The notes beneath the pieces are model-generated. The model made no database searches and had not been told where the DNA came from. It was given only the letters and a program-made list of their open reading frames with translations. From positions 4,588,001 through 4,652,000 of the forward strand of contig NZ_LR594659.1 in NCBI RefSeq assembly GCF_901827155.1: a DNA stretch of 64,000 nt, written 5' to 3'. This stretch comes from Variovorax sp. PBL-H6. GTDB lineage: Bacteria > Pseudomonadota > Gammaproteobacteria > Burkholderiales > Burkholderiaceae_C. Made by a program: the position numbers and the translations under genes. Of this stretch, positions 8,816 to 58,306 are shown piece after piece. Numbering within the stretch: the stretch's first letter is position 1; each line of letters opens with the position of its first letter.

Positions 8816-9964
8816 GTCTTGCGGCTGGTACTTCCAGGCGCCGTTTTCGATCTTCACCATCACGCGCGCGCGCTGGTCCAGGCCCAGGTGGTCAGTCGGG
8901 GACATGGTGAAGATGCCATGCGCGCCGGGGACGTTCTTCACCTCTTCCAGCGCATCGCGCAGCGCGGCGCGGAAGGCCGGCGTGCCGGGCTGCGCCTTCT
9001 TCAGCGCGACAGGGATCGCGGCGTTCATGATCAGGCCGGCATCCCAGGCATGGCCGCCGAAGGTCGACACGCTGCCCTTGCCGTTGGCCGCTTCGTAGGC
9101 ATTGACGTAGGCCAGCGCGGACTTCTTGAGCGGATGCGAATCGGGCAGTTGCGACGCCACCAGCATCGGGCCGGACGGCAGCAGCGTGCCCTCGACGTCC
9201 TTGCCGCCGACGCGCAGGAAGTCGGAGTTGGCGACGCCGTGGGTCTGGTAGATCTTGCCGGCGTAGCCGCGCTCCTTGAGCGTCTTCTGCGGCAGAGCGG
9301 CCGGGGTGCCGGAGCCGGCGATCAGCACGGCGTCGGGCTTGGCGGAGATGAGCTTGAGCGTCTGGCCGGTGACCGAGGTGTCGCTGCGAGCATAGCGCTC
9401 GTTGGCCACGACCTTGAGCTTTCTCAACTCGGCGGCCTTGGTGAATTCCTGGAACCAGCCTTCGCCGTAGGCGTCGGAAAAGCCGATGAAGCCGACCGTC
9501 TTCACGCCGTTGGCTGCCATGTGCTCGGCGATGGCGAGCGACATCATGATGTCGTTCTGCGGGGTCTTGAAGACCCACTTGCGCTTGGCGTCCATGGGCT
9601 CGACGATGCGCGACGAGGCGGCCATCGAAATCATCGGCACCTTCTCCTCGGCCACCACGTCGATCATGGCCAGCGAGTTGGGCGTGACGGTGGAGCCGAG
9701 CACGATGTCGACCTTGTTCTCGCTGATCAGCTTGCGCGTGTTCGACACCGCGGCCGTGGTGTCGGAGGCATCGTCGAGCACGATGTAGTTGATCTTCTGC
9801 CCGCCGATGGTCTTCGGCATGAGTGCGATGGTGTTCTTTTCGGGAATGCCGAGGGAGGCGGCGGGCCCGGTTGCCGACAAGGTGACGCCGACATTGATGT
9901 CGGCGTGCGCGGCAAAGGCCATGGCGCACAGCAGTGCCACGCCGAGGCGGGTGAAAGAACTCAT
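8813..9964 (-). CDS. livK: ABC transporter periplasmic substrate-binding protein, LivK family
   Basis: This 383-residue protein has a signal peptide (cleavage after AFAAHA near residue 21), then INVGVTLSATGPAASLG, the opening of family-1 (Peripla_BP_6) binding proteins. It captures the ligand for LivH/LivMG/LivF. It starts only 33 bp after paaE on the same strand. I therefore infer that the ligand is phenylacetate or another aromatic acid feeding the Paa pathway; leucine-type amino acids remain possible. Its stop codon coincides with the edge of a dispersed repeat. Confidence 0.88.
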   Translation of the reverse strand: MSSFTRLGVALLCAMAFAAHADINVGVTLSATGPAASLGIPEKNTIALMPKTIGGQKINYIVLDDASDTTAAVSNTRKLISENKVDIVLGSTVTPNSLAMIDVVAEEKVPMISMAASSRIVEPMDAKRKWVFKTPQNDIMMSLAIAEHMAANGVKTVGFIGFSDAYGEGWFQEFTKAAELRKLKVVANERYARSDTSVTGQTLKLISAKPDAVLIAGSGTPAALPQKTLKERGYAGKIYQTHGVANSDFLRVGGKDVEGTLLPSGPMLVASQLPDSHPLKKSALAYVNAYEAANGKGSVSTFGGHAWDAGLIMNAAIPVALKKAQPGTPAFRAALRDALEEVKNVPGAHGIFTMSPTDHLGLDQRARVMVKIENGAWKYQPQD

Positions 9965-9997: not shown

Positions 9998-11083
9998 TCA
10001 GCGTTCGTCGAAGGACAGCCGCACGCGCTCGGTCAGGGGGTGTGCCTGGCAGGTGAGGATAAAGCCACCCGCGACCTCATTCTTGTCGAGCGCGAAGTTG
10101 CGCTCCATCCGCACTTCCCCTTCCAGGAGCTTGGCGCGGCAGGTGCCGCACACGCCGGAGGTGCAGGAATACGGCACCTCCAGGCCGGCGGAAGACGCCG
10201 CGTCCAGGATGCTGGGCTGCCCCAGCGTGTACGGGATCTCCCGCGCGATACCGTCGCGCACGATGGTGATGCGCGCGGTCTCGGCATCGCCCGGCTGCGG
10301 CTCGTGCACGACCGCGCCTACCGTGCCGCTGGGCGACTGGGCGAGGCCGAAGCGCTCGATGTGGATGCGCTCCTCGGGCACGCCGGCCTCCAGGAGCGCG
10401 GCCTCGGCCTCGTCGTTCATCTGGAAGGGGCCGCAGACATAGACGTGGTCGATGCTGCCGGGTGCCACCAGGCCCCTGAGGAACTCGGCGATCTTCTCGC
10501 GGTTCATCAGGCCGGCGTTGATGGGCACGTCGGTGTGCTCGTCGGAGAACACGAGCTGCAGCGACAGGCGCGTCATGTAGCGGTTCTTCAGGTCCTCGAT
10601 TTCTTCCTTGAACATCGTGGACCGGAGCTGCCGGTTGCCGTAGATGAGAGTGAAGCGCGAATGCGGCTCGCGCGCCAGCACCGTCTTCATGATGGAGAGG
10701 ATGGGCGTGATGCCGCTGCCGCCCGCGATGCCTACGTGGTGGCGCCGTGCGTCGGGCTCAATCGGCACGAAGAAGCGGCCCTGTGGCGCCATCACCTGCA
10801 GCGTGTCGCCGGGCTGGAGGCTGCTGTTGATCCAGTTGGAGAACAGGCCCTGCTGCACCTTGCGCACGCCGACCCGCAACTCGCCGTCGTCCACCCCGGC
10901 GCAGATGGAGTAGGAGCGGCGCAGGTCCTGGCCGTCGATCTCCTTGCGCAGCGTGAGGTACTGGCCCTGGGTGAAGCCGAACACGCCGCGCAGTTCCTCC
11001 GGCACGTCGAAGGAGACGATCACCGCCTCGGCGGTGTCGGGCTCGATGCTGCGCACGCGCAGCGGGTGGAAGATGACGCTCAT
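9998..11083 (-). CDS. paaE: Phenylacetyl-CoA epoxidase reductase PaaE
   Basis: This protein of 361 residues transfers electrons from NAD(P)H through FAD and a 2Fe-2S centre to the PaaABC epoxidase in the cytoplasm. Residues ~1-105 form the FAD domain (RRSYSICAG), ~110-235 the nucleotide domain (GIAGGSGITPILSI) and ~270-361 the plant-type ferredoxin, with cysteines at 307, 312, 315 and 345 (CTSGVCGTC...C). Length and domain order match PaaE. It follows paaD by three bases, placing it at the end of the catalytic genes. Confidence 0.96.
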   Translation of the reverse strand: MSVIFHPLRVRSIEPDTAEAVIVSFDVPEELRGVFGFTQGQYLTLRKEIDGQDLRRSYSICAGVDDGELRVGVRKVQQGLFSNWINSSLQPGDTLQVMAPQGRFFVPIEPDARRHHVGIAGGSGITPILSIMKTVLAREPHSRFTLIYGNRQLRSTMFKEEIEDLKNRYMTRLSLQLVFSDEHTDVPINAGLMNREKIAEFLRGLVAPGSIDHVYVCGPFQMNDEAEAALLEAGVPEERIHIERFGLAQSPSGTVGAVVHEPQPGDAETARITIVRDGIAREIPYTLGQPSILDAASSAGLEVPYSCTSGVCGTCRAKLLEGEVRMERNFALDKNEVAGGFILTCQAHPLTERVRLSFDER

Positions 11084-11086
11084 GGC

Positions 11087-11620
11087 TCAGAGGGGTTTGA
11101 AGTGCTCGAAGGGTTCGCGGCAATCGAGGCAGCGGTAGAGCGACTTGCACGCGGTGGAGCCGAAGGCCGAAAGCCGCTCCGTGTGGGCGCTTCCGCATCG
11201 CGGACAGGCCACCGGCGCGGCCGGCGGGCGGCGCACCAGGCGAATCGGCACCGCGCCGCCATGCGAGCCCGCTGCGCCTGGCGGCGCGATGCCGTATTCG
11301 CGCAGCTTGCGCTTGCCTTCGGAGCTGATCCAGTCGGTGGTCCAGGCCGGCGCGCGGCGAAGGGTCACGCGGGCCGGACCGAGCCCCGCGGCGTCGATGG
11401 CCTCGAGCACGCTGCGCTCGATCACCTCGGTGGCGGGGCAGCCGGAATAGGTGGGCGTCAGCACGATCTCGAACCCCTCCTCTCGCGGCAGGATCTCGCG
11501 CACGATGCCCAGGTCGCAGACCGACAGCGCGGGCACCTCGGGGTCGAGCACGGTGCCCAGTACCTCCCAGGCGCGTGCAATCCGAGCCTCTTCAGCAGCA
11601 GGAAGGCGCAGCGCATCCAT
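11087..11620 (-). CDS. paaD: Fe-S cluster maturation-type protein PaaD
   Basis: This 177-residue protein has an N-terminal MIP18/DUF59 domain (EVLGTVLDPEVPALSVCDLG, then PTYSGCPATEVIE) and a C-terminal zinc-ribbon-like set of cysteines (139, 142, 158, 164, 167). PaaD is needed for an active phenylacetyl-CoA epoxidase and probably helps mature the iron-sulfur centre of PaaE. The frame is open upstream, but the ATG at 11620 overlaps the paaC stop (TGATG) and matches family starts, so upstream residues are excluded. Confidence 0.94.
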   Translation of the reverse strand: MDALRLPAAEEARIARAWEVLGTVLDPEVPALSVCDLGIVREILPREEGFEIVLTPTYSGCPATEVIERSVLEAIDAAGLGPARVTLRRAPAWTTDWISSEGKRKLREYGIAPPGAAGSHGGAVPIRLVRRPPAAPVACPRCGSAHTERLSAFGSTACKSLYRCLDCREPFEHFKPL

Positions 11621-21446: not shown

Positions 21447-21922
21447 GCCCCGCCGAGGCGGACTGGGGTACACCGCTCGAGAGCCCCGCGTATCCGCCTT
21501 TGGTGCGGATCCTGGCCGTGCTTCTCGTCGTCGACCTGATCGCCTTCGGCCTGTGGAGCCTGCCCGCGCTGCGAAGCGCCGAGTGGTCGACGCCCAGCCT
21601 GCTGCTGTTCGCCGGCGCAGCGGTCTGCATCGTGTGGGTCGGCTACTGGATCGTCTACAGCCGCACCCGGCTCGAAGGCGACGTGCTGACGCAGACCTGG
21701 ATCTGGAACCGGCGAGCGGACGCGGGCAAGGTCACGCAGCTCAAGCTGGTGCATTGGCGCTGGGTCGACCGCATCGTCGCGCCGCGGCTGCTGGTGCGGC
21801 AAGGCCCCACGGTCACCTGGTTCCACTCTTCCGATGCGCGGTTGTTGACTGGGTTTGCCGAACGGGTGGCTGAGCGGATGGCTCTGGACAGAGGCGCGTC
21901 TTCAGCGCAACGGCCAGGCTGA
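21443..21922 (+). CDS. Conserved hypothetical membrane protein
   Basis: This 159-residue protein starts at a GTG that overlaps the dctM stop. Two membrane segments (about 20-40 and 50-70) are followed by a soluble domain with WIWNRRADAGKVTQLKLVHW, which looks like a PH-like or DUF-type membrane-associated domain. Function is unknown. Translational coupling to dctM suggests co-production. It ends 17 bp from the convergent repeat-protein gene, which marks one border of the accessory locus. Confidence 0.65.
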
Positions 21923-21939
21923 GGCGCCGATCGTTGCAC

Positions 21940-24570
21940 TTACCAGTCCCCTGAAGGCGCAAGCGGCCCGACGTCGACATGAGCGTTGGGATAAGGATCG
22001 TAAGGGTCATGGTACGGCGGCGGAGAAGGAGACTCCGTCGGGCGGCCGTAGAACAATGGCGGTGGCGGCGGGAGGTGCGGGCTATCGACCTGCGCCTCCC
22101 TATATACCTGCAGGCCGAAAGCATTGAACGTGGTGACCATCCTGAGGCCGACGTCGAGATACTCGATCCGCATCCGGCTGCCGTCATCGTTGAAAACATC
22201 GGCAGTGGACTCATAGCCCCACGTGGTGAAATGCTGTTCGACCCTGCTCCACGGCTTCGTATTGTCCTGGTCGTAGTCGCAGCGTATGCGCGTCATGTTG
22301 TCCATGAAAACGGTGGCTTCATCCTCACGCCCCCAGGCGTCGAAATGGGACATCACGCGCGTCCAGTCTTGCGTGCCGTCCTGGTCATAGTCGTATCGGT
22401 CACGCGTCCCGTCGTCCATGGACATGTCGGCAAAGTCTTCGCGCCCCCTCGCGTCGAAATGCGACACAACCGCACTCCAACTCTGGCTGCCCACTTGATC
22501 GTAGTCGTGGCGCTCGCGGCTGCCGTTGTCCAGGTACAGATCGGCGTAGTCCTCGCGGCCCCAGGCATCGAAACGGGATTCGACCCGACTCCAGGCCTGT
22601 GAGCCGTCCTGGTCGTAGTCGTACCAGTTGCGGCTTCCGTCGTCGAGAGTGATGCTTGCCCAATCTTCGCGTCCCCACGCGTCGGTGCGGTTCTGCCAGA
22701 TACTGTCGCCACGCTCGTTGTTCTGGTCGTAGTCGGTCCAGTCACGGCTACCGTCATCCTGGGTCACATAGGTCCAGTCAAGACGGCCTTGGGCATCTGT
22801 GTGGGACTGTGAGATGCTGTCCGCGCGCGCGCCGGTCTGGTCATAGTCCGCCCAGTCGCAGCTGCCGTCATCCTGGGTGACATAGGTCCAGTCGAGAAGG
22901 CCCTGGCTATCCGTATGGGACTGCGAGATGCTGTCCGCGCGCACGCCGGTCTGGTCATAGTCCGTCCAGTCGCGGCTGCCATCGTCCTGGCTGACATAGG
23001 TCCAGTCCAGGCGGCCTTGGGCGTCCATGTGACTCTGTGAGATGCTGTCCGCGCGCGCGCCGGTCTGGTCATAGTCCGCCCAGTCCACGCTGCCGTCATC
23101 CAAAGTGGCGTAAGTCCAATCGGTACGGCCTTGAGCATCCATGTGCGTCTGCCATGTGCGGTCGCCGCGGACATTGGTCTGGTCGTAGTCGATCGAGTCC
23201 ACGCTGCCGTCATCCTGGGTCACGTAGGTCCAATCGGCGCGGCCTTGGGCGTCGAAGTGCGTCTGCGATGCGCGGTCAGCGCGGACGTTGGTTTGGTCGT
23301 AGTCAGTCGAGTCCACACTGTCGTCATCCTGGGTCACGTAGACCCAATCGGTGCGGCCTTGGGCGTCGACGTGCGTCTGCGATGTGCGGTCGCCGCGAAC
23401 ATTGGTCTGGTCGTAGTCGGTCGAGTCCACACTGCCATCGTCCTGGATCACGTAAGTCGAGTCGGTGCGGCCTTGGGCGTCAATGCACGTCTGCGATGTC
23501 CTGTCGCCGCGGGCGTTGGTTTGGTCGTAGTCGTAAACGATCCGGCTGCCGTCGTCGATGAAAGTAGTGGCGTAGTCCTCGCGACCCTGGGCGTCGAAGC
23601 GCGACTCGATGCGGCTCCAGAGTCGCGTGCCGTTCTGGTCGTAGTCGGTCGTGTCGCGGGTGCCGTCGTCGCGACGTACGTCGATCGAATCTATGCGGCC
23701 CTGAACGTCGTAGGTGGTGACGCGGGTGCCGTAGCCGGCATCGTTGTGCGCTCCATCGGTCTCGATGACCTGGATCAGGCGACCGGAGGAGTCATAGTCT
23801 CGGATGACCTCGTCGCTGGTGTAGTTGGCCACGTAGTTCGAGGGCAATGAGCCCTGCGCATGCTCGGCCACATAGCTTGCGAGCGCCGTGCCGGAATAGC
23901 CCATCGCCCTGCCGCTCAGCTCCGCGTCCATCAGGTTTGCGTAGATGGTACCTTCCTGTGTGCGCATGTGGTACTCGGTAGGTGTCATCTCGCCGGAATC
24001 GCGCAGCGAGCGCAACGTCTGCAGGTCGGCATACCAGCCGGCCGCTTCGGCCCTCATCATCAGTTCGACAGAAGCGGCCGCACGCCCTGCGCCCGTTAAC
24101 GCGGGGTGGTAGGTGGCGGGGCTGGTATCGCGAAGGCGGTAGGCTTCGTCGTACCAGTTCTGGCTGGCGTTGTGCTGGACCTCGTGGACCGTGAGGCCCA
24201 TGCGGGTGGATGCACCGATGGAGGTAGCCCAGGCCGCAGCTTGGATGACAACAGCGTGGCCATCGACTGTTGTGGTGCGGTTGACGAACCAGTCTTGATC
24301 GAGTTGGACGGCGAACTTGCCGCCACGGCGCACGAAAAGATCCGAGTCACGACCAGAGTCATACATCGCCGCGGCCCGGTTCTCCTCAAGTCTGGCGTGA
24401 CTGACCAGCTCAAATACAGCATCACCTCGACTGACCATTGCACTGACCTGTGCGTTGGCGTAAGTATCTCGGTTGAGTGCATTCACAAAGTTCTGTAGCG
24501 CCGTCAAATCCGCTCCCTCAGCAGACTTGATTCGATCGAAGATCAGGTCACTCGTGGTAAATGCGGTCAT
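21940..24570 (-). CDS. HEXXH repeat protein, putative type I secretion cargo
   Basis: This 876-residue protein has three parts. Residues 1-~280 include HEVQH (129-133), a zinc-peptidase HEXXH motif. It is followed 41 residues later by Glu175 in LMMRAEAAGWYADL, a plausible third ligand as in gluzincins. Residues 288-818 are fourteen tandem units of 38 residues, each with DAQGR, DDGS and DYDQ; they are Asp-rich and distantly reminiscent of YD/RHS repeats. The tail (819-876) is proline-rich (DSPHLPPPPPLF). There is no N-terminal signal peptide, as expected for type I export. A GGGAG eight bases before the ATG supports the start. Cargo status is inferred from the adjacent exporter genes; no RTX nonapeptides are present. 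Confidence 0.7.
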   Translation of the reverse strand: MTAFTTSDLIFDRIKSAEGADLTALQNFVNALNRDTYANAQVSAMVSRGDAVFELVSHARLEENRAAAMYDSGRDSDLFVRRGGKFAVQLDQDWFVNRTTTVDGHAVVIQAAAWATSIGASTRMGLTVHEVQHNASQNWYDEAYRLRDTSPATYHPALTGAGRAAASVELMMRAEAAGWYADLQTLRSLRDSGEMTPTEYHMRTQEGTIYANLMDAELSGRAMGYSGTALASYVAEHAQGSLPSNYVANYTSDEVIRDYDSSGRLIQVIETDGAHNDAGYGTRVTTYDVQGRIDSIDVRRDDGTRDTTDYDQNGTRLWSRIESRFDAQGREDYATTFIDDGSRIVYDYDQTNARGDRTSQTCIDAQGRTDSTYVIQDDGSVDSTDYDQTNVRGDRTSQTHVDAQGRTDWVYVTQDDDSVDSTDYDQTNVRADRASQTHFDAQGRADWTYVTQDDGSVDSIDYDQTNVRGDRTWQTHMDAQGRTDWTYATLDDGSVDWADYDQTGARADSISQSHMDAQGRLDWTYVSQDDGSRDWTDYDQTGVRADSISQSHTDSQGLLDWTYVTQDDGSCDWADYDQTGARADSISQSHTDAQGRLDWTYVTQDDGSRDWTDYDQNNERGDSIWQNRTDAWGREDWASITLDDGSRNWYDYDQDGSQAWSRVESRFDAWGREDYADLYLDNGSRERHDYDQVGSQSWSAVVSHFDARGREDFADMSMDDGTRDRYDYDQDGTQDWTRVMSHFDAWGREDEATVFMDNMTRIRCDYDQDNTKPWSRVEQHFTTWGYESTADVFNDDGSRMRIEYLDVGLRMVTTFNAFGLQVYREAQVDSPHLPPPPPLFYGRPTESPSPPPYHDPYDPYPNAHVDVGPLAPSGDW
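22117..23709 (-). repeat. Fourteen 114-bp coding tandem repeats
   Basis: Units of 114 bp encode 38 residues each; thirteen are exactly 38 and the last is 37. Copies 3-9 are the most alike, while the first two and last five have diverged, the pattern expected when unequal exchange homogenises the centre. Copy number may vary between strains. Confidence 0.9.
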
Positions 24571-25282
24571 CTTTGTACTCCCTAAGCATGAACAAATTGC
24601 CTATCGAAATGCTGTCTAAACAACCGCCGCGGCCGAGATGGAAGCTCACGCTCCCGCTGCTCTTGTGCGGCGCGCGAAACTCTGCGGTGTAGGGGCGTCC
24701 ATCATGTGGGCCGGTTGGCGGAACGCCCGGTGGCAATGTCCACTCTCGCAACTGCGCATGGACGTCCTGTGGCCGATACCTGAATGGCTTTCCCCAGTAC
24801 GCCTCCAGCAGGCGCGACGGATAACACATGATTCCGGGATCATCGCGGCTTTGCGCGTAGCCCAACTCGATCGTCATGCTCCAGGTGCCGGACTCCTTGT
24901 ATTCAAAGTAAGCCAAGCGTCCTTTCCAGAAGGTGCCTGTCAATGGCCCCTCCTTGACAAACGGTTCAACCAGAATTCGATCGCCCCGGCTGTTTGATGT
25001 TGGCTTCGAGACGATCAGCCTCGCACCCAATGTCTTCTCGATCGACTCTCTGTTGAGGATCAGCCCAGGCACCTCATGCAAGTGCCTGGCAGCATCGATC
25101 ATTTGCTGGAGTTCAAGAGGTAATTCAGTTGCGATGCTCCTGCCCTCGAAAGTCGCAGCTCCCGACGCCGGCGTTTCAACACCAGGCGGCCCGATTGCTT
25201 GACCCCAAGCGTCCGGAGCAAGCGCGGTTGCTCCTGCCGCAGCCAGCACACGCAGAATCCGCGATGGCCCGAGCCAGTTCAC
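24548..25282 (-). CDS. Unrecognised exported protein of the secretion locus
   Basis: With a GTG start at 25282 (AAGGGGG six bases upstream) this is 244 residues and begins with a clear signal peptide ending near DAWGQA (residue ~29). The in-frame ATG at 25357 would bury the signal behind a charged extension and is less likely. The mature part is mixed alpha/beta in character, with two cysteines (GIMCYPSRLL and GRGGCLDS). I recognise no family. It overlaps the start of the repeat-protein gene by 23 bases, so the two are probably made together. A periplasmic partner, chaperone or immunity protein is conceivable but unproven. Base composition is lower in GC than flanking core genes (33 of 60 in the row at 24961). 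Confidence 0.6.
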   Translation of the reverse strand: MNWLGPSRILRVLAAAGATALAPDAWGQAIGPPGVETPASGAATFEGRSIATELPLELQQMIDAARHLHEVPGLILNRESIEKTLGARLIVSKPTSNSRGDRILVEPFVKEGPLTGTFWKGRLAYFEYKESGTWSMTIELGYAQSRDDPGIMCYPSRLLEAYWGKPFRYRPQDVHAQLREWTLPPGVPPTGPHDGRPYTAEFRAPHKSSGSVSFHLGRGGCLDSISIGNLFMLREYKDDRIYHE

Positions 25283-25436
25283 CTCATGCCCCCTTGCCCG
25301 ACAAGATTGCTGCAACGCCCTCCGATCCCTGAGTCCATTTGATTCTTCCCCTGACATCGACAAAGTGGGCGATGCTCTCGCAATTCCTGCTCCGCGCATA
25401 GATGACAAATGTCCCTCCCAAACCCTCGTTGTCCTT

Positions 25437-26159
25437 CTATCTAAGCAAAGCAATGAGCTCTGTCCTCTTGCACACGCCCACGCGCGCATAAACCTTCGCC
25501 AGCTGATTGCGAACGCTCTTTTCGGTGATCCCCCCGATCGACTGCGCGATGCCCTTGTTGCTCTTGCCGGCGGCCAGTTGCCGCACGATTTCCTTTTGCC
25601 TCGGCGTCAATCCATCGAGCCCACTCGCCACTGCAGGCAGCGTCAGCGCGATGTGGGACAGCATCAGGTCATTGAGCACCGGCGCAATCAGCGTCAGCGC
25701 TTCGAGGTGCCAGTCGCCCAGCGGCTCCCTGACGCCAGCAAAGCCGAAATAGATTCCCGCATTGGCCTTGACGTTGAGCACACCGTGCCCCGCCACATTG
25801 CCGAAGCCGAAGCGCTCGATCTCGTCGAGCTCGAAGGCGCTTGCATGCTCGGATGGATTCTTCGGGTTGATGTGGAAGGGTTGCCGGCTCGAGAACCACC
25901 ACCTCAAGGACCCGCGCTGGTTCAGCTCGAAGGTGGTCGGAAGCTGACGCAGGTAAGCATCGTCGTGGCCTGTGGCAAGCATGTGCGTGACATTGAGTTG
26001 CCCCGCAACGAGCTCTCCGTGCCCGAGCACGACACCCTTGAACGGGAAGAACTTTCGCAGCGGCCCTTCGAGCCATGCAGTCAGGCTGTCGGCCGAAGCG
26101 AGCGGATGGGTCACGGCGGTGACCCAGGCTTTCAGATCATTCTTTGTGAGATGTTGCAT
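25437..26159 (-). CDS. LuxR-family transcriptional regulator
   Basis: This 240-residue protein has a C-terminal LuxR helix-turn-helix (LTPRQKEIVRQLAAGKSN then ITEKSVRNQLAKVYARVGV, about residues 178-235). The N-terminal ~165 residues look like a GAF/autoinducer-binding-like sensor but lack a motif I can name. The start at 26159 (MQHLTKNDLK) leaves 23 bp after the adaptor gene. A regulator of this sort inside a type I secretion operon is probably its local control. No luxI homologue is nearby. Confidence 0.8.
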   Translation of the reverse strand: MQHLTKNDLKAWVTAVTHPLASADSLTAWLEGPLRKFFPFKGVVLGHGELVAGQLNVTHMLATGHDDAYLRQLPTTFELNQRGSLRWWFSSRQPFHINPKNPSEHASAFELDEIERFGFGNVAGHGVLNVKANAGIYFGFAGVREPLGDWHLEALTLIAPVLNDLMLSHIALTLPAVASGLDGLTPRQKEIVRQLAAGKSNKGIAQSIGGITEKSVRNQLAKVYARVGVCKRTELIALLR

Positions 26160-26182
26160 CGATCGACTCCCTGTCTCCTGCC

Positions 26183-27556
26183 TCACCGTTCCCGCATGCT
26201 TCGCCGAATCCCATCGAGCACCGGATCGAACAGATAGCGCCACGCACTGCGCTCCCCCGTGGGAATGAACACCTCTGCCTGCATGCCGGGCGACAGCACC
26301 AGCGGCTGGCCCGCCAGCTTGCTGGCAGCCTGCAGCGCTTCCTGACTCACGGTGACATGCGCGACGTAGTAGGGCGCACCTGGGTTGGCCGAACGAGGAT
26401 CGGTCACCCGGTCGGCGCCCACATAGCTGAGCAGCCCCTCGACCTGCGGCGTGGCGCGGGCGCGGTACGCGGTGAGCATCACGTGCGCAACGCCCGTGTT
26501 GGCCTGCACACGCTGCACGTCACGGATATCGGCCGGCGCGATGCGCGCCTCGATGATCAGCTCCGAGCCGGTGGGCACGATGTCCATCACCGGCTCGCGC
26601 GGCCCGATGGCGGCGCCGACGGTGTGTGCCTTCAGGTCCACCACTTCTCCGGCGACCGGCGCCACGAGCCGCTGCCGCGTCTGTGCATCGAGCGCCGGGC
26701 GCAGCGCCTGTTCGATCTGCGCGAGTTGGGCGGTTACGTCTTTCAGCTCGTCGGCCGCGGCTCGCGCGAATTCCGTCTTCTGCGCCGAGAGCTTGAGACG
26801 GATGTCCGCCTCCTTCTGGCGCGCCTGTGCCATTTGGCCCTGGCTGGCCTGCACGCGGGCGCGGTAGTCGACCACGACGCGCTGCAGTTCGCTCAGTCTC
26901 GCGTCGCTGATGAATCCATCGGCCTTGAGCTTCTCGTTGGCGGCAAGGTCGCTCTGGGCGAGTTTCGAGGCCGACTCGGTCGTGGCGATCAGTTCGCCCT
27001 GGGTCGCGATCTCGCGCTGGATCTGCGACAGCTGCTCGCTCAGCCAACGCGCCTGCTCGGCCTGCTGGTGGGCACGGGCGACAAACAGTCCCTGCTCGCG
27101 CTGGGCGAGCACCGTCCACTGCGGCAGGTCGCCCATCTCGCCGCTTGCAGCGATGCGCTCGTCCAGAGCCTTGAGGTCCGGCGCGAACCGATTGCCGGCG
27201 GTCTCGGCTTCGAGCCGCTGCGCCTTCAGCATGCTCATCATCCACTGCTCGCGCAGCGCCTGTGCGCCAGCAGCCACGCGCTCATCGGCCAGGGTGATGA
27301 GCGGCTGGCCCTGCACGACCCGATCGCCGTCCTTCACGTGGATGGCGGCGACGATGCCGCCTTCGGCATGCTGCACAGTCTTGCGGTTGCCCACCGACTT
27401 GACCGTGCCCTCTGCGACCACAGCGGCGGCCAGTGGCGCCAGCGCCGCCCAGGCGCTCAGCGCAAGGATGCCGAGCAAGGTACCGCACAGGCCCGCGCGC
27501 AGGGCGCGGCGCATTTCCTGCTGCCAGGGTGGCGAAGGGGTGTGATCGGCGCTCAT
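26183..27556 (-). CDS. HlyD-family type I secretion membrane-fusion protein
   Basis: This 457-residue protein has a single N-terminal membrane anchor (about 19-45, LCGTLLGILALSAWAALAPL), a lipoyl-type half (KTVQHAEGGIVAAIHVKDGD), a long coiled-coil hairpin (about 130-300) and a beta-barrel end. This is the PrtE/HlyD layout. It links the ABC exporter to an outer-membrane TolC-type channel, which is not encoded in the window. It overlaps the ABC gene by four bases (ATGA). Confidence 0.9.
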   Translation of the reverse strand: MSADHTPSPPWQQEMRRALRAGLCGTLLGILALSAWAALAPLAAAVVAEGTVKSVGNRKTVQHAEGGIVAAIHVKDGDRVVQGQPLITLADERVAAGAQALREQWMMSMLKAQRLEAETAGNRFAPDLKALDERIAASGEMGDLPQWTVLAQREQGLFVARAHQQAEQARWLSEQLSQIQREIATQGELIATTESASKLAQSDLAANEKLKADGFISDARLSELQRVVVDYRARVQASQGQMAQARQKEADIRLKLSAQKTEFARAAADELKDVTAQLAQIEQALRPALDAQTRQRLVAPVAGEVVDLKAHTVGAAIGPREPVMDIVPTGSELIIEARIAPADIRDVQRVQANTGVAHVMLTAYRARATPQVEGLLSYVGADRVTDPRSANPGAPYYVAHVTVSQEALQAASKLAGQPLVLSPGMQAEVFIPTGERSAWRYLFDPVLDGIRRSMRER

Positions 27557-29403
27557 GTCCGGTCCCCCTGCTTCGCCAACATGGCCTGGTTGCGCTTGAT
27601 CATCCATTGCCGCACCTGCTCGCGCGGACCGAACTGCTCGACCGTACCCTGGCCCAGCATCAGCACATGGCTGGCCAGGCCGATCAGGTGTGGACGGTGG
27701 GTGATCACCACAACCGTGGTTCCCTGTCGGTGCAGACCGTGGAGGCAGCGCTCCAGGGCTGCCTCACCATCGGCGTCGAGATGACTGTTGGGTTCGTCGA
27801 GGATGACCAAGCTCGGCTCGCCGGAGCCCGGCGTGGCGTAGATTGCGCGGGCCAAGGCGATGCGCTGGCGCTGGCCGCCCGAGAGGGCCTGCGCCCCGGG
27901 ATCGTGGCCGAGAAGCGTGTCGTAACCCTTGAGTAGCGAAGTGATCAGCTCATGGGCTCCGGCGCGTTTCGCGGCCTTGATCACGGCCTCGCTTTGTTCG
28001 GGCGTGAGGGGCTTGGTCGGCTGCCACAGGCGAGCGATGTTGTGGGCCACGCTGCCGCTGTGCAATTGCACATCCTGTGGCAAGTAGCCGGTGGCCTGGC
28101 CGCGGGCCTGTGGGCTGTATTGATGCAGCGCGGCGCCATCGAGCGCCACCTCACCCTGGCTGGCTGCCTGCACGCCGGCCAATACGCGCGCCAGGGTGCT
28201 CTTGCCGCTGCCGCTGTCTCCCAGCACGGCGAGCAGCGCACCCGAAGGCAACTCGAAGTCGAGGTTGTGCAGGATGCTGGCCACATCGCACGAGGGCCTG
28301 ACGCCCAGATGCGCGATGCGCAGCTCGCCGCGGCTGGGCGGCAGGACGGTTTCCGGCAAGAGACTGGCGGCCCGACCCTGGGATGCCAAGCCATGGCGCA
28401 GCCGAGCCCATGCCTTTCGAGCTTCCAGTTGCTGCTTCCAGCTGCCGATCAGCACTTCCAGCGGCATCAAGCCCTTGCCGAGCAGGATGCTGCCCGCGAT
28501 CATCACGCCGCCAGTGGCCCGGTCGTGGAGCACCAGCCATGCACCGGTGGCAAGCATCGCCAACTGCAAGACCTGGCGCAGCAGCTTGCCCCAGCCCTTG
28601 AGGCTGTGGCCCGGAAGATCGGCGGCAAGCTGCGCGCTCGATGCGCGGTCCTTGATGGTGCCCAGCGCTGCGCCCACCTGGCCTTGTTGGCCATGCGCTT
28701 GCAGTACTTCGGCGAAGTCTGCGATCTCGCTGGTTCTGCGCTGCGCCTGCGTCCGGGCCTGCCCGGCCAAGTCCACGGCGCCTCGCAATCGCCATTCGGT
28801 GAGCCAGGCCAGCCCGATGAGCATCAGCGTTCCGGCCAGCGCCACGGCGCCCAGCAATGGATGGAAGGCGGCGATGACAAGCAGGTAGATCAGGCTCCAG
28901 GGCAGGTCGATCGCCGCAAGGAGCGCCGGGCCGCCGACGAATCCCCTCAGCGATGCGACGTCCCGCCACAGTTGCTCGGCCATCGCGCCCGCCTGCGAAG
29001 CAGGAACATGAAGCATCAACGGGATCAGCGCGCGCGTCAGCCGTGCTTCCAACCCCGCCGCGCATGCCGCATGCCAGCGCACGCGCGAGGTGTCGGTCAT
29101 CCACCATGCTGCCAGCGACAGCGCCGCGGCGGCCAGCAGCATGAGCAGGGTTTCGCTGCTTCGGCTGGTCAACACCCGGTCGTAGATCTGTAGCGTGATG
29201 AGGGTCGGGATCAGCAGCAGCAGGTGAACCACGGAGCTGGCAAGAAGCGCACCCGCGATGCCATGCGATACCGGCCAGGAAACGACGGGGTCGAACAGCG
29301 TTGACCGATCGGCCCTCACGTTGCGCTCTGGTTTTCGTGGCGGTGCGCCAATGCGGGGAACGGCAGCACGCACGGCGGCCCCCGCTTCATTTTTCTTGTC
29401 CAT
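27553..29403 (-). CDS. Type I secretion ABC permease/ATPase, PrtD type
   Basis: This 616-residue exporter has a membrane domain (about 40-330; LITLQIYDRVLTSRS is typical of PrtD/LapB) and an ATPase domain with Walker A GDSGSGKST near 392, signature LSGGQRQRIALARA near 504 and Walker B LVILDEPNSHLD near 530. There is no N-terminal C39 peptidase, so its cargo should carry an uncleaved C-terminal signal. The ATG at 29403 has GGGACGG just upstream. It is the first gene of the five-gene leftward locus. Confidence 0.9.
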   Translation of the reverse strand: MDKKNEAGAAVRAAVPRIGAPPRKPERNVRADRSTLFDPVVSWPVSHGIAGALLASSVVHLLLLIPTLITLQIYDRVLTSRSSETLLMLLAAAALSLAAWWMTDTSRVRWHAACAAGLEARLTRALIPLMLHVPASQAGAMAEQLWRDVASLRGFVGGPALLAAIDLPWSLIYLLVIAAFHPLLGAVALAGTLMLIGLAWLTEWRLRGAVDLAGQARTQAQRRTSEIADFAEVLQAHGQQGQVGAALGTIKDRASSAQLAADLPGHSLKGWGKLLRQVLQLAMLATGAWLVLHDRATGGVMIAGSILLGKGLMPLEVLIGSWKQQLEARKAWARLRHGLASQGRAASLLPETVLPPSRGELRIAHLGVRPSCDVASILHNLDFELPSGALLAVLGDSGSGKSTLARVLAGVQAASQGEVALDGAALHQYSPQARGQATGYLPQDVQLHSGSVAHNIARLWQPTKPLTPEQSEAVIKAAKRAGAHELITSLLKGYDTLLGHDPGAQALSGGQRQRIALARAIYATPGSGEPSLVILDEPNSHLDADGEAALERCLHGLHRQGTTVVVITHRPHLIGLASHVLMLGQGTVEQFGPREQVRQWMIKRNQAMLAKQGDRT

Positions 29404-29546
29404 TCCGTCCCTTGAATCTGCGTGCGACCACGCGGCCGCGCGTGATTCTGCGAGAAAAAAGGCCAGATGAACCTGATGAATTCTGACGTCTTGGAACAGA
29501 GGAGCCCGGACTTGCACCAAGGCTCGCCGATGCTGCGTGCCCAAGA

Positions 29547-29577
29547 AAAAAGCCCCGCCATCACTGGCGGGGCTTTT
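29547..29577 (-). terminator. Intrinsic terminator after dctP
   Basis: AAAGCCCCGCCA and TGGCGGGGCTTT pair around four bases. On the minus strand the stem is followed by a T run, 31 bases past the dctP stop. It insulates dctP from the secretion locus downstream. Confidence 0.85.
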
Positions 29578-29607
29578 CGCTTCAGGATCAGGAAACGGAT
29601 TACCCGA

Positions 29608-52729: not shown

Positions 52730-55093
52730 TCAGACCGGCGTCAGCTTCGCCACCGACAGCGCCAGCCACTTGATGCCGTGGCGCGGAAAGTTGATCTGCG
52801 CGCGTGCATCGTCACCGCTGCCCTCCAGCGCGAGCACGGTGCCCTCGCCGAACTTGTTGTGGAAGACCTGCATGCCCGAACGCAACCCATGCGAAGGCGC
52901 GGCCTTTTGCGGTGGCACGGGTGGGCTGGCGAAGCTTTCCTTGCTGCCGTAGCTGCCGCCGCGCGTGCTCGCGTAGCCGCCGCCGTAGCCGAAAGCCGAA
53001 GGCGTGAAGCCCTGGTTCTTCGGCGTCAGCCACTTGAGCGCGGTCTCCGGCAGCTCGTCGAAGAAGCGGCTCTTGAGGTTGTAGCGGGTCTGGCCGTGCA
53101 GCATGCGCGTCTGCGAGTGGCTCAGGTAGAGGCGCTTTCGGGCGCGCGTGATGGCCACGTACATCAGCCGCCGCTCCTCTTCCAGGCTTTCGAAATCCGA
53201 CAGCGAGTTCTCGTGTGGAAAGAGGCCCTCCTCCATGCCGGTGATGAACACGCAATCGAACTCCAGGCCCTTGGCTGCGTGAACCGTCATCAGCTGCACC
53301 GCGTCCTGCCCGGCCTGCGCCTGGTTGTCGCCCGACTCCAGAGCGGCGTGGGTCAGGAAGGCGGCGAGCGGGCTCATGGTCTCGCCGGTTTCGGCGTCGG
53401 GCGCGAGCGGCTCGTCGGTGATCGGCAGGTTGGGGTCGAGGCCCTGGCTGGCCGGCGACTGGCGCAGTTCGTCGACCGGCATCGCCACCGCATCGCGGCC
53501 GAAGCCCTCCTGCGTGACGAAGCTCTCGGCTGCATTGACCAGTTCCTCCAGGTTCTCGATGCGGTCGGCGCCTTCGCGCTCGCTGCGGTAGTGCTCGATC
53601 AGGCCGCTGTGTTGCAGCACCAGCTCGATGATCTCGCGCAGGGACTGGCCTTGGGTCTGCTCGCGCAGCACGTCGATCTTGGCGACGAAGGCCGACAGGT
53701 TGGCGCCGGCCTTGCCACCGACGGCGGCGACCGCATCGTGCATGGATTGGCTCGCGGCACGGGCCGCATCCTGTAATTGCTCGATGCTGCGCGCGCCGAT
53801 GCCGCGCGGCGGGAAGTTGACGATGCGCAGGAAGCTGGTGTCGTCGTCCTTGTTCTCGAGCAGCCGCAGGTAGGCCAGCGCATGCTTGATCTCGGCGCGC
53901 TCGAAGAAGCGCAGTCCGCCGTAGACGCGGTAAGGTACCGCGGCATTGAAGAGCGCGGTCTCGATCACGCGGCTCTGTGCGTTGCTGCGGTAGAGCACCG
54001 CCATTTCCTTGCGCTCGATGCCGTCGCGCACCAGCTGCCGCATCTCCTCGACCATCCACTGCGCCTCGGCGAAGTCGCTGGTGGATTCGTAGACGCGCAC
54101 CGGCTCGCCGGGCCCCTGGTCGGTGCGCAGGTTCTTGCCCAGCCGCTTCTTGTTATGGCTGATCAGCGCGTTGGCCGAGTCGAGGATGTTGCTGTAGCTG
54201 CGGTAGTTCTGTTCCAGCTTGATCTGGTGCGTGACGTTGAACTCCTGCACGAAATCCGCCATGTTGCCCACTCGCGCCCCGCGGAAGGCGTAGATGCTCT
54301 GGTCGTCGTCGCCCACCGCGAGCACGCTGTTGTCGCCGGGGACGAAGCGACCCTCCACTGTGTGGCCGGCGAGCATCTTGATCCAGGCGTACTGCAGGCG
54401 GTTGGTGTCCTGGAATTCGTCGATGAGGATATGGCGGAAGCGCCGCTGGTAGTGCTCGCGCACCGGGTCGTTGTCGCGCAGCAGCTCGTAGCTGCGCAGC
54501 ATCAGCTCGCCGAAATCGACCACGCCTTCGCGCTGGCACTGCTCCTCGTAGAGCTGGTAGAGCTCGACCTTCTTGCGGTCGTCCTCGCTGCGGGCCTCGA
54601 CATCGCGCGGCCGCAGGCCGTCTTCCTTGGCGCCGGCGATGAACCACTGGGTCTGCTTGGCCGGGAAGCGCTCTTCGTCGACGTTGTACTGCTTCATCAG
54701 CCGCTTGATGGCCGAGAGCTGGTCCTGGGTGTCGAGGATCTGGAAGGTTGACGGTAGCCCGGCCAGCTTCCAGTGCGCGCGCAGGAAACGGTTGCACAGG
54801 CCGTGGAAGGTGCCGATCCACATGCCGCGGGCGTTGACGGGCAGCATGGCAGTGAGCCGCGCCATCATTTCCTTGGCTGCCTTGTTGGTGAAGGTGACGG
54901 CCAGGATGCCGCCAGGCGAGACCTGGCCGGTCTGCAGCAGCCAGGCGATGCGGGTGGTCAGGACGCGAGTCTTGCCGGAGCCGGCGCCGGCCAGGATCAG
55001 GGCGTTGCCGACGGGCAGCGTGACGGCGGCGAGCTGCTCGGGGTTGAGGTTTTGCAACAAAGGGGAGGCGGGCGCGGGGGTGTCGGACTGCAT
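52730..55093 (-). CDS. uvrD: UvrD-family DNA helicase II
   Basis: This 787-residue SF1 helicase has Walker A AGAGSGKTR around residues 35-43, DEFQDTNRLQYAWIKML, GDDDQSIYAFRGA, and the C-terminal motifs QLMTVHAAKGLEFDCVFI and YVAITRARKRLYL. The ATG at 55093 (MQSDTPAPAS) is chosen over in-frame upstream codons. It unwinds DNA in mismatch and excision repair. The C-terminal Gly/Tyr/Ser-rich linker (about 700-740) precedes a Tudor-like end. Confidence 0.95.
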   Translation of the reverse strand: MQSDTPAPASPLLQNLNPEQLAAVTLPVGNALILAGAGSGKTRVLTTRIAWLLQTGQVSPGGILAVTFTNKAAKEMMARLTAMLPVNARGMWIGTFHGLCNRFLRAHWKLAGLPSTFQILDTQDQLSAIKRLMKQYNVDEERFPAKQTQWFIAGAKEDGLRPRDVEARSEDDRKKVELYQLYEEQCQREGVVDFGELMLRSYELLRDNDPVREHYQRRFRHILIDEFQDTNRLQYAWIKMLAGHTVEGRFVPGDNSVLAVGDDDQSIYAFRGARVGNMADFVQEFNVTHQIKLEQNYRSYSNILDSANALISHNKKRLGKNLRTDQGPGEPVRVYESTSDFAEAQWMVEEMRQLVRDGIERKEMAVLYRSNAQSRVIETALFNAAVPYRVYGGLRFFERAEIKHALAYLRLLENKDDDTSFLRIVNFPPRGIGARSIEQLQDAARAASQSMHDAVAAVGGKAGANLSAFVAKIDVLREQTQGQSLREIIELVLQHSGLIEHYRSEREGADRIENLEELVNAAESFVTQEGFGRDAVAMPVDELRQSPASQGLDPNLPITDEPLAPDAETGETMSPLAAFLTHAALESGDNQAQAGQDAVQLMTVHAAKGLEFDCVFITGMEEGLFPHENSLSDFESLEEERRLMYVAITRARKRLYLSHSQTRMLHGQTRYNLKSRFFDELPETALKWLTPKNQGFTPSAFGYGGGYASTRGGSYGSKESFASPPVPPQKAAPSHGLRSGMQVFHNKFGEGTVLALEGSGDDARAQINFPRHGIKWLALSVAKLTPV

Positions 55094-55315
55094 GGCGCAT
55101 TGTAGGAAGTGCAGTTTTGCACGATTCAACTGCACACCATCACGCGCCCTCGTAGGAAAGATGGAATCGTTTCCGGCCATTCGTTACTTATCTTGCACAG
55201 GATGTCGCATAGCAGGAAGCGCCGTCCCGACTGTCTCGTTGACTGACTACTTCGGTTTTTCATGGCAGATGAATATTTCTGCGAATTGTCACTCTGAGCT
55301 CTTCAGATCTCACTT

Positions 55316-57103
55316 ATGCGATCAACCACCGCAACCATCAAACCCGAAGTCAAGTTCTACGAAGTAACACCGAAGGCCGAGAGTAGTCCAGCGCAGGTAT
55401 CGCGCACACCCACCGACACCGTTAAACAACTGGGCTTAAATAAACACTCCAAGGAGCGCATCGGGTTCGAGGGCCGGGGCACGGTCATTTATGCAAAGAC
55501 GTGGGCAGAGCCTAAGCGTGCCAAGCGTCTATGGGAGGCAGCGAGCGGCCGTTCTAAAAACAGCAAGAATTCAGCAAGAGCTGTCCTAGATCGGCTCGAA
55601 AAAGATGTCGACAACAGAGGCGTTTCAAGGAACCCTCTCGTGCAAGAAAAGCTGGATGTGGTACGGGCCCAGATCAAGGAATCGGACTCCGTTGTCGCGA
55701 AAGATCTGCACGCGCTGCTGGACATTATCCCCAAGGCGGAGCAAGCCCATGCCGAACAGCAACGGAAATTCAATGCGAACATGAAGGTCGTCGCCGACAA
55801 ATTGATAAAGACGCAGAGGACTCACTATTTCCTCAAAGCGTTGCCGTCCAAAAATGTGTCTCCTACTACGTTCACCCAGAAATCCATTGACGATTTTCTG
55901 AACTTCGCCAAGAGAATGGCTGCTCTCGATGTAGACGCTCTCGGAACGAATCCGATTGCCCACGAAGAGATCAAGACAGCCTGGGAGTTCGCCGAGATCT
56001 GGGCCAACGCTACGCCCAAGGCCGCGCTCGGAAGCCCAAAAGCCACATATCTCATTGATCACCTCGTCAGCCTGATACGCAACGGCGATATGAAAATGAA
56101 TGGCGCCGACAGGCAAGACTTGGACCAATTCAAATGGGTCGACGAGAAAAAGCTCATCCACGGCACGGCCGAGTTCGTGCGTGATGACACCCCCATCTGT
56201 AAAAATGGCCCATATATCTACAGGTGCGGCACTAGGACCGTTGTCGTGAAGTCGTTGCACCATGACGACAAAGAAAAGGCGCCCCAAGCCCTGCGGGAAG
56301 CTCGGGTACACGCCCACGTAACGATGGGCAAGCCCGAGCACATCGTGGGGCTCCTGGGAATCGTACAAACGCCCGAAGCCGGACCGATGATGGTTCTCCA
56401 GCATGCACCAAACGGTGATGCCAACAAGGCTCTATTGAAGCTGCAGAAACTTGGCAGCGCGCGCGCGTCGCATTCGCTCATGACCATGTTCGCGAACATG
56501 GTCACGGGGGCGAAGAACGCCCATGCCCAGGGTGTTATGCATCTTGATCTCAAACCCGAGAACTACGCTCTCGATGAGAACGGTGCGCCTTTACTTATCG
56601 ACTTCGGCACTTCACGCGCGACGCTCGCCAAGACCATGTTGAGCCCGACCGACTCACCCGAGTTCAGTGCCCCAGAACTGATTAACGGACTCAACAACGC
56701 AGGAACTATCACCTTTGAGGCCGACATCTGGTCATTGGGAGTGGTTTTGTACCAATTTAATTCGCCACGGTTCGATGGCCAAGACTCGACCGACGACCCT
56801 AGACGCCTTCTGCCGTTCCCACACCAGGGATTCAATACAGTCACCGTCAACCTAATCAACGACTTCATCACAAAAGATGAGCGCGGTCGACTCCAGCAGC
56901 TTGGATTTGACCCCGACAACCCGTTGCCATTGCACCAGCTCATCATCCAGATGCTTGATCCGAATCCCTCCAGGCGGCCTTCGCTCACGGACGTGCTCGA
57001 GCACCCGTCGATCAAGTCCTATGCGAATCAGAGTCCCGCTGAATTGTTCGCTGCGCGCGAGCTGATCCTCGAACCTCCTGCCAATCAACTGATCGAGGTT
57101 TGA
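55316..57103 (+). CDS. Eukaryotic-type Ser/Thr protein kinase with unknown N-terminal half, likely acquired
   Basis: This 595-residue protein has an N-terminal half (1-~285) I do not recognise, lysine-rich and helical. Residues ~290-565 are a protein kinase: Lys312 (VVVKSL), Glu328, catalytic loop HLDLKPEN (409-416, Leu in place of the usual Arg), DFG at 429-431, APE at 452-454, DIWSLGVVLYQF and a closing DPNPSRRPSL. The glycine loop is degenerate. There is no membrane segment or PASTA domain, so it is not a classic PknB. DNA is visibly AT-richer than neighbours (27 G+C in the 60-base row at 55861). It interrupts two core genes. A host-directed effector is possible, but no secretion signal is evident. 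Confidence 0.82.
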   Translation: MRSTTATIKPEVKFYEVTPKAESSPAQVSRTPTDTVKQLGLNKHSKERIGFEGRGTVIYAKTWAEPKRAKRLWEAASGRSKNSKNSARAVLDRLEKDVDNRGVSRNPLVQEKLDVVRAQIKESDSVVAKDLHALLDIIPKAEQAHAEQQRKFNANMKVVADKLIKTQRTHYFLKALPSKNVSPTTFTQKSIDDFLNFAKRMAALDVDALGTNPIAHEEIKTAWEFAEIWANATPKAALGSPKATYLIDHLVSLIRNGDMKMNGADRQDLDQFKWVDEKKLIHGTAEFVRDDTPICKNGPYIYRCGTRTVVVKSLHHDDKEKAPQALREARVHAHVTMGKPEHIVGLLGIVQTPEAGPMMVLQHAPNGDANKALLKLQKLGSARASHSLMTMFANMVTGAKNAHAQGVMHLDLKPENYALDENGAPLLIDFGTSRATLAKTMLSPTDSPEFSAPELINGLNNAGTITFEADIWSLGVVLYQFNSPRFDGQDSTDDPRRLLPFPHQGFNTVTVNLINDFITKDERGRLQQLGFDPDNPLPLHQLIIQMLDPNPSRRPSLTDVLEHPSIKSYANQSPAELFAARELILEPPANQLIEV

Positions 57104-57206
57104 CGCAACCAGTGCAAGCGGCGCGACGATTGGTTCATTCGCCCCCTTGCATGGACGGTATTTGCACATCGGTCTGCACACGCGCCGCCTCACTACTAGA
57201 ATCACT

Positions 57207-57239
57207 CACCGGGCCCAAGCTTCTTGCGCCCGGTTTTTT
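57207..57239 (+). terminator. Intrinsic terminator after the kinase gene
   Basis: CCGGGC and GCCCGG pair, extended by CAAG/CTTG inside, and are followed by six T. It ends about 90 bp before the guaC start and would stop kinase transcription before guaC. Confidence 0.85.
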
Positions 57240-57328
57240 GTGCGCGTCTTCTTTGCGAAGCGCGCGCCAAGACCGGCCAGACCAAGCGCTCATTCGTTCT
57301 TCAACGACCTCTTCAGGAGCTTGGTTCC

Positions 57329-58306
57329 ATGCAGATCTTCGACTACGACAACATCCTCCTGCTGCCGCGCAAATGCGTGGTGGAAAGCCGCTCCGAGTGT
57401 GACGCCAGTGTCACGCTGGGCGGCCGCACCTTCCGCATCCCGACCGTGCCCGCGAACATGAAAACGGTGGTCGACGAGACCATCTGCACCTGGCTGGCGC
57501 AGAACGGCTACTTCTACGTGATGCACCGCTTCGACCTCGACAACGTCCTGTTCGTGAAGGACATGCACGCCAAGGGCGTCTTCGCCTCCATCTCGCTGGG
57601 CGTCAAGAAGCCGGACTACGAGACGGTGGACCGCCTGGCCGCCGAGGGCTTGGCGCCCGAGTACATCACCATCGACATCGCACACGGCCACGCCGACACG
57701 GTGAAGAACATGATCGCCTACCTCAAGAAGAAGCTGCCGAAGGCCTTCGTGATCGCAGGCAACGTGGGCACGCCCGAGGCGGTGATCGACCTCGAGAACT
57801 GGGGCGCCGACGCCACCAAGGTCGGCATCGGCCCGGGCAAGGTCTGCATCACGAAGCTCAAGACCGGCTTCGGCACCGGCGGCTGGCAGCTGTCGGCGCT
57901 CAAGTGGTGCGCGCGAGTGGCCACCAAGCCCATCATCGCCGACGGCGGCATCCGCGACCACGGCGACATCGCCAAGAGCATCCGCTTCGGCGCGTCGATG
58001 GTGATGATCGGTTCGCTGTTCGCCGGCCACGAGGACTCCCCGGGCAGGACGGTGGAAGTCGACGGAGCGCTCTTCAAAGAGTACTACGGCTCGGCCAGCG
58101 ACTTCAACAAGGGCGAGTACAAGCACGTCGAGGGCAAGCGCATCCTCGAGCCGATCAAGGGCAAGCTGGCCGACACGCTGGTCGAGATGGAACAGGACAT
58201 CCAGAGTTCCATCAGCTACTCGGGCGGGCGCAAGCTCATGGATATCCGCAAGGTCAACTACGTCACGCTGGGCGGCGACAACGCGGGCGAGCACCTGCTG
58301 ATGTAA
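57329..58306 (+). CDS. guaC: GMP reductase
   Basis: This 325-residue (beta/alpha)8 enzyme converts GMP to IMP with [24 protein letters not shown] holds the catalytic cysteine, and [18 protein letters not shown] and [19 protein letters not shown] are nucleotide-binding. The ATG at 57329 with CAGGAGC upstream is preferred. It resembles the GuaC2 type of Gram-positives and many betaproteobacteria. Confidence 0.92.

Follow-up and report, generated by a model that had tools for sequence, protein, structure and literature searches.

Exchange of an N-terminal enzyme-like domain together with its partner gene in a predicted type I secretion cassette of Variovorax

In textbooks, type I secretion is the route by which host toxins, proteases, lipases and adhesins are exported. 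We analyzed a stretch of 64,000 nucleotides from Variovorax sp. PBL-H6 (NZ_LR594659.1, positions 4,588,001 to 4,652,000; hereafter the window), which holds a five-gene cassette for a predicted type I secretion system (T1SS), its putative cargo, a repeat protein with an HExxH motif (REP), and a small signal-bearing protein (X). The main result, absent from the original prediction made for this locus, is that the N-terminal domain of REP and its partner X are, as judged from sequence comparison, one exchangeable module. The cassette probably encodes a polymorphic type I-secreted effector that combines an N-terminal zincin-like enzyme with its own periplasmic protector. Its features, in coordinates of the window, are as follows.

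21926..29530, no strand: inserted cassette (flanks adjoin in 7/8 relatives examined)
27553..29403, minus strand: PrtD-like ATP-binding cassette (ABC) exporter that leaves no space for a C39 domain (616 residues; TIGR01842 match starts at residue 50)
26183..27556, minus strand: HlyD-type periplasmic adaptor (TIGR01843)
25437..26159, minus strand: LuxR-type regulator (GerE domain; weak EpsA-like match)
24548..25282, minus strand: X, putative periplasmic protector, 244 residues (Sec-type signal by eye; conserved Cys 153 and 221)
21940..24570, minus strand: REP, putative cargo, 876 residues (open reading frame and sequence comparison)
23758..25430, minus strand: exchange module made up of X and REP residues 1-270 (DNA of loci L017 and L021 matches on either side but not within)
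23760..24570, minus strand: variable N-terminal domain of REP, residues 1-270, zincin-like (alignment, DNA comparison, clustering)
24172..24186, minus strand: HEVQH, REP residues 129-133 (sequence)
24046..24048, minus strand: Glu175 of REP, candidate third zinc ligand (invariant in 9 aligned type-1 proteins)
22135..23730 (edges approximate), minus strand: 14 YD-like repeats of 38 residues in REP (anchor spacing)
21940..22083, minus strand: C-terminal tail of REP, about residues 830-876, possible export signal (common to different N-terminal types)

Coupling, exchange and insertion

Searching 101 genomes of the genus with the HlyD protein of this exporter (E <= 1e-90) gave seven loci in six genomes. 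At each of them a REP relative adjoins HlyD, with a signal-bearing X gene directly upstream of the REP gene; two loci, L019 and L021, end at contig ends, and their cargo is visible for 91 and 283 residues only. The one locus obtained from a scan of genome contigs lies on the L021 contig. L028 and L021 are a single locus and entered the count once; L025 and L027 were dropped (E 1.6e-5 and 2.1e-4; no reference protein matched an open reading frame there) and L088 was left out of the analysis. These counts support the original proposal that REP is the predicted cargo of the exporter. Of its two declared counter-outcomes, REP homologues consistently without an exporter and an unrelated cargo beside the same exporter, neither was seen in the genomes searched. 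Exporter, X and REP recur at the seven genus loci, LuxR is present at four, and in 399 family-level genomes the window's own genome was the sole HlyD match at the same threshold.

The boundaries of the exchange can be read from DNA comparisons. Between the window and L021, identity is 87.6% between 29496 and 25430, where the LuxR gene ends; no match of 80 nt or more occurs between 25430 and 23758 (REP residue 271), and beyond 23758 identity is 78.7% up to the contig end. Comparison with L017 gives the same two boundaries, identity being 88.7% before 25430 and 74.6% beyond 23758. The shared boundaries thus indicate that X and the N-terminal domain were replaced together. At protein level, HlyD is 94% (over 267 residues, L017) and 89% (L021) identical to that of the window, and X and the REP N-terminus are unrelated in both. 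The original prediction had cast the 244-residue protein as the partner or protector of REP, a role supported by its joint change with the N-terminal domain; its signal sequence was recognized by eye.

The left-flank site was fetched in nine genomes, of which eight were compared. In seven of the eight, the left flank (ending at 21876-21925) joins the right flank (starting at 29524-29603) directly, which marks the cassette as an insertion of about 7.6 kb; in the stretch fetched from L082, no right flank was found. No duplicated ends of the insertion could be established. G+C content is 58-61% for X, the N-terminal domain and LuxR, 67-69% for the exporter genes and 66.6% for the window.

The L017 locus (G094:C1:3508000-3527000) has a broken exporter, with a stop in HlyD and an ABC fragment, yet its REP and two X genes are open, and the site of the window's cassette is empty in that genome.

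Domain types, a second carrier and domain-partner pairing

By their N-termini, 31 repeat proteins (that of the window and P0006-P0035) form four clusters of 12, 9, 8 and 2 members, and the main tail cluster (18 proteins) is found with all four N-terminal types. In type 1, that of the window, HExxH and Glu175 are invariant in nine aligned rows, with 40-42 residues between them in the seven measured. Type 4 carries HELGH. Type 2 has HExxH in two of eight proteins and HEGxGH in those read among the remainder, and type 3 has no HExxH and instead a GENC motif (GENCxxFV) reminiscent of Cys peptidases, a label that Pfam did not support at E up to 5.

Genus-wide searches, one with REP and one with a profile of X, revealed the same N-terminal types on other carriers. 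Type 1 together with X1 also occurs on cargos of 3593 (L023), 2782 (L024) and 505 residues (L046, no HExxH), and type 2 together with X2 on cargos of over 3000 (L047) and 2405 residues (L048). The L024 cargo contains RTX-type repeats, and its RTX C-terminus is present in 34 of the 101 genus genomes. The exporters beside L024 and L047, the two tested, are HlyB-type (1018 and 1007 bits; cut-off 725.55). The type-1 family of N-terminus and X spans both chassis, repeat proteins and RTX giants. X and cargo genes overlap by 20-23 nt in 6/6 type-1 loci on both carriers, and are separated by gaps of 2-6 nt in three type-2 loci. Among 28 further loci, the N-termini include serralysin-like, lipase-like (motif by eye) and helical ones without profile match, and a small signal- or membrane-bearing gene commonly lies upstream of the cargo.

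For a test of pairing, clusters were made over 32 loci, both of cargo residues 1-250 and of the upstream proteins, which gives 496 locus pairs. Nine of 41 loci (L053, L055, L058, L059, L062, L072, L074, L075 and L079) had been left out before clustering, judged by eye, on the grounds of a broken or missing cargo start, a contig end or no clear upstream gene. Fifty-six pairs shared the N-terminal cluster and 45 the X cluster, and 45/45 of the latter also shared the N-terminal cluster. None of 20,000 shuffles, in which the relatedness of the loci was ignored, reached 45 (mean 5.1, maximum 22). Against the pairing, eleven pairs share the N-terminal cluster without a common X, five within the serralysin-like set and six in L070, L071, L073 and L076. 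The test is only partly circular: L046-L048 came from the search with X, and their N-termini proved to agree; for L023 and L024 it was the N-terminus that led to the locus and X that proved to agree; L017, L018 and L022 came through the repeats or through the repeat tail of the type-4 domain, and the remaining loci through the RTX end.

Partner genes also occur in duplicate or displaced form. X is in tandem duplicate in L017 and L022. At L049 (G013:C6:38000-57500), about 9128-9763, lies an orphan X2 gene with one internal stop and no adjoining cargo among the open reading frames listed. At L048 (G007:C13:1794500-1814000), about 10272-11373, a 120-residue truncated type-4 N-terminus and a lipoprotein-like fragment stand beside an intact type-2 pair, a remnant whose sequence resembles a displaced orphan module.

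Further observations concern the RTX carriers. L078 (G097:C1:4307970-4313570) encodes an RTX cargo with an N-terminal Tle1-like phospholipase domain (30.7 bits; cut-off 27), with three consecutive small lipoprotein-like genes upstream. On giants, L026, L054, L056 and L077 carry another N-terminal family of zincin-like type (HETQH, HELQH, HEGKH and HEASH), which has its own upstream family. The host genome itself encodes a further two RTX cargos, L070 and L071 (G000:C1, near 1.23 and 2.90 Mb; 1812- and 2032-residue frames), whose N-termini are helical and whose upstream genes resemble those of membrane proteins.

Predicted function, rival readings and known systems

In the proposed mechanism, the roughly 270 N-terminal residues of REP would be an enzyme of zincin-like type (HExxH...E), protease or envelope peptidase being the likeliest activity. 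The 38-residue YD-like repeats and the tail would serve as carrier for the dedicated PrtD-like pair of ABC exporter and HlyD, and this pair probably relies on a TolC-type protein whose gene lies elsewhere. X would reach the periplasm by Sec, neutralize the cognate enzyme domain and shield the producer and its kin, and LuxR may control the cassette. Domain and putative protector are inherited and swapped as one module, and the same modules are found on giant RTX proteins with HlyB-type exporters. Gene order, modularity, exchange boundaries, pairing and insertion are read directly from the sequences; secretion, zinc-dependent activity, neutralization, regulation and use against competing bacteria are predicted here from gene content and context. 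An effector with its protector is suggested because of the exporter-cargo coupling, the joint exchange, the tandem X genes (L017, L022), the L048 remnant and the L049 orphan. On balance, we lean slightly toward the wider proposition of a polymorphic toxin-immunity system in this genus that is delivered through type I secretion. Its portable modules, each an N-terminal toxin domain and the immunity gene upstream of it, would be common to two unrelated carriers, short YD-repeat proteins with PrtD-like exporters and RTX giants with HlyB-type ones.

The main rival is a protease with its inhibitor for nutrition. REP would then be an ordinary nutritional or matrix-degrading exoenzyme and X an Inh-like guard against leaked enzyme, with no role in competition. 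This explanation has an exact functional parallel in aprA-inh-aprDEF (PMC3034196), and it can point to the PrtD-like exporter and to repeats that REP has in common with serralysin-RTX proteins. We nevertheless judge it unlikely, as the exchange of domain and X as a whole, the several unrelated domain types and the tandem and orphan X genes fit antagonism better, and a phospholipase-like N-terminus occupies the same place at L078. FrpD has inspired a different role for such partners: X might be no inhibitor but an anchor or adaptor at the surface, by which the secreted N-terminal domain stays tethered to the producer. FrpD is an outer-membrane lipoprotein with very high affinity for the FrpC N-terminus, for which a tether has been speculated (PMC5233953), and several X proteins resemble lipoproteins; however, X of the window, L019 and L020 has no lipobox, and the occurrence of tandem copies and orphans is closer to the pattern of immunity genes, so that we find an anchor improbable. 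That the exporter serves another substrate, with REP and X as bystanders, is hardly credible. REP has no recognized export signal and nothing else was found in favour of this idea, against which stand the presence of REP at 7/7 exporter loci and the five genes forming one insertion.

The cassette is akin to known kinds of system, namely T1SS protease-inhibitor operons, FrpDC and polymorphic toxins. The original statement that no described system has this combination is not supported, in view of aprA-inh-aprDEF (PMC3034196) and frpDC (PMC5233953, PMC6759196). In the former operons, a T1SS exporter is encoded with a metalloprotease and a Sec-exported periplasmic inhibitor, Inh, the presumed guard of periplasmic proteins (PMC3034196). 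As in AprA-Inh(AprI)-AprDEF and PrtA-Inh-PrtDEF, the exporter genes adjoin those of an HEXXH enzyme and a Sec-exported periplasmic partner, both putative in the cassette. Unlike serralysin and AprA, REP lacks HEXXHXXGXXH, reading HEVQHNASQNW, and has no RTX repeats; unlike AprA-Inh-AprDEF, X has no Pfam match to the inhibitor family, the cassette lacks an outer-membrane gene and has a LuxR gene, and domain and X are swapped for unrelated pairs.

In the frpDC operon, the gene of a lipoprotein stands with that of an RTX protein secreted by T1SS, and the lipoprotein binds the N-terminus of the RTX protein (PMC5233953, PMC6759196); FrpC/FrpD of Neisseria meningitidis and Smlt3024/Smlt3025 have been hypothesized to be antibacterial effector and immunity pairs (PMC6759196). 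As far as these accounts go, both resemble the cassette in a signal-bearing partner and a T1SS cargo with its active part at the N-terminus. Unlike FrpC, with RTX repeats and self-cleavage, REP has YD-like repeats and an HExxH domain. Min-Wnt domains at the N-termini of RTX-like repeats (PMC12419801) likewise combine an effector domain at the N-terminus with a carrier of repeats that suggests T1SS; the Min-Wnt passage of that paper does not mention one module common to two carrier types.

With polymorphic toxin systems (contact-dependent inhibition (CDI), Rhs and others) the cassette shares a constant carrier, a variable toxin-like domain, an adjacent partner that changes with the domain, and tandem, orphan and displaced modules. 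It differs from them in the N-terminal position of the REP variable domain, the upstream partner gene and the predicted export by T1SS, which the relevant part of PMC3482391 names for large RTX toxins only. Like Rhs/YD-repeat proteins, REP has YD-like repeats, and the top Foldseek matches of its model are Rhs cores; unlike them, it has neither an RHS profile match nor a C-terminal toxin. Among open-access papers we found no description of this cassette, nor of modules common to two T1SS carriers.

If the toxin-immunity interpretation is true, T1SS would provide interbacterial antagonism with a general platform, in which the toxin sits at the end opposite to that of classical polymorphic toxins. 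If the pairing is one of effector and immunity, a common soil and root genus would hold a modular antagonism platform with many uncharacterized domain/partner pairs, and the suggestion of FrpC/FrpD as an antibacterial pair, as put in part of PMC6759196, would gain a testable general frame. New zincin-like domains with dedicated protectors would also offer clean protein-inhibitor pairs for structure work.

Properties of REP, X and the remaining genes

REP contains exactly 14 DDG-type anchors, every spacing being 38 residues, so that the originally predicted count of 14 repeats is right and a chance repeat is set aside; HEVQH likewise lies at residues 129-133 of the 876-residue protein, with a conserved Glu 42 residues after it. 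The protein has 161 acidic and 75 basic residues and three Cys. The RTX motif GGxGxD was not found in REP or in the 10 homologues counted, and PF00353 was absent from the Pfam scan of REP. For REP and X there was no Pfam or NCBIfam match above any curated cut-off, no meaningful PDB sequence match and nothing usable among PADLOC profiles; no RHS/YD family matched REP at E up to 1 in Pfam or NCBIfam, and matches to SHOCT, GvpG and a peptidoglycan hydrolase were far under the cut-off and were discarded. In Foldseek, RhsA (7q97) reached E 5.9e-16 at a template modelling (TM) score of only 0.09; the REP model has a pTM of 0.37, and its superposition on Rhs cores is poor (TM 0.07-0.10). Structure comparison of the model did not identify the fold of the enzyme domain.

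A protein search with REP residues 1-255 gave no additional family; several named REP relatives are from Variovorax. Thirteen plasmid records match REP, none reaching 80% coverage of it; the matches listed all start at residue 279 or later and hence lie outside the N-terminal domain. P0036, P0039, P0040 and P0043, RTX proteins containing serralysin-type domains, finish with the DYDQ-type repeats also seen in REP, which ties the REP repeats to other T1SS cargos.

For X, no Pfam family, including that of the Inh inhibitor, was found at E up to 1, and structure comparison did not identify its fold. FrpD, whose structure is solved, was neither among its four PDB sequence matches nor in the rows listed from two structure comparisons, which were both weak. 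The absence of a lipobox from X of the window, L019 and L020 was judged by eye and by regular expression. A loose lipobox pattern matches 17/32 upstream proteins; this pattern is no predictor, and some matches look false.

All five open reading frames lie on the minus strand at the originally claimed positions, with overlaps of 4 bp (ABC/HlyD) and 23 bp (X/REP) and gaps of 23 and 154 bp. The HlyD frame has a second, earlier start at 27607, and the 4-bp overlap depends on the later ATG. X starts with GTG; its frame is open further upstream, giving a 313-residue open reading frame, hence its start is a choice. The best NCBIfam match of the ABC protein is TIGR01842 (PrtD type), at 487.9 bits just below the curated cut-off of 510.15, and HlyD matches TIGR01843 at 300 bits (cut-off 208.65). 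The EpsA match of LuxR is weak (52.6 bits; cut-off 170), and its PADLOC match (21.8 bits over the DNA-binding part) looks like a common helix-turn-helix and was set aside. The TolC family (PF02321) has 21 matches at 11 places in the window's own genome, none inside the cassette. A defence-system reading was considered and set aside, as was phage origin, the five genes showing nothing phage-like and no further phage search having been made. Elsewhere in the window, G+C drops to about 55-59% at 54001-58000, against 66.6% overall, a second possible insertion.
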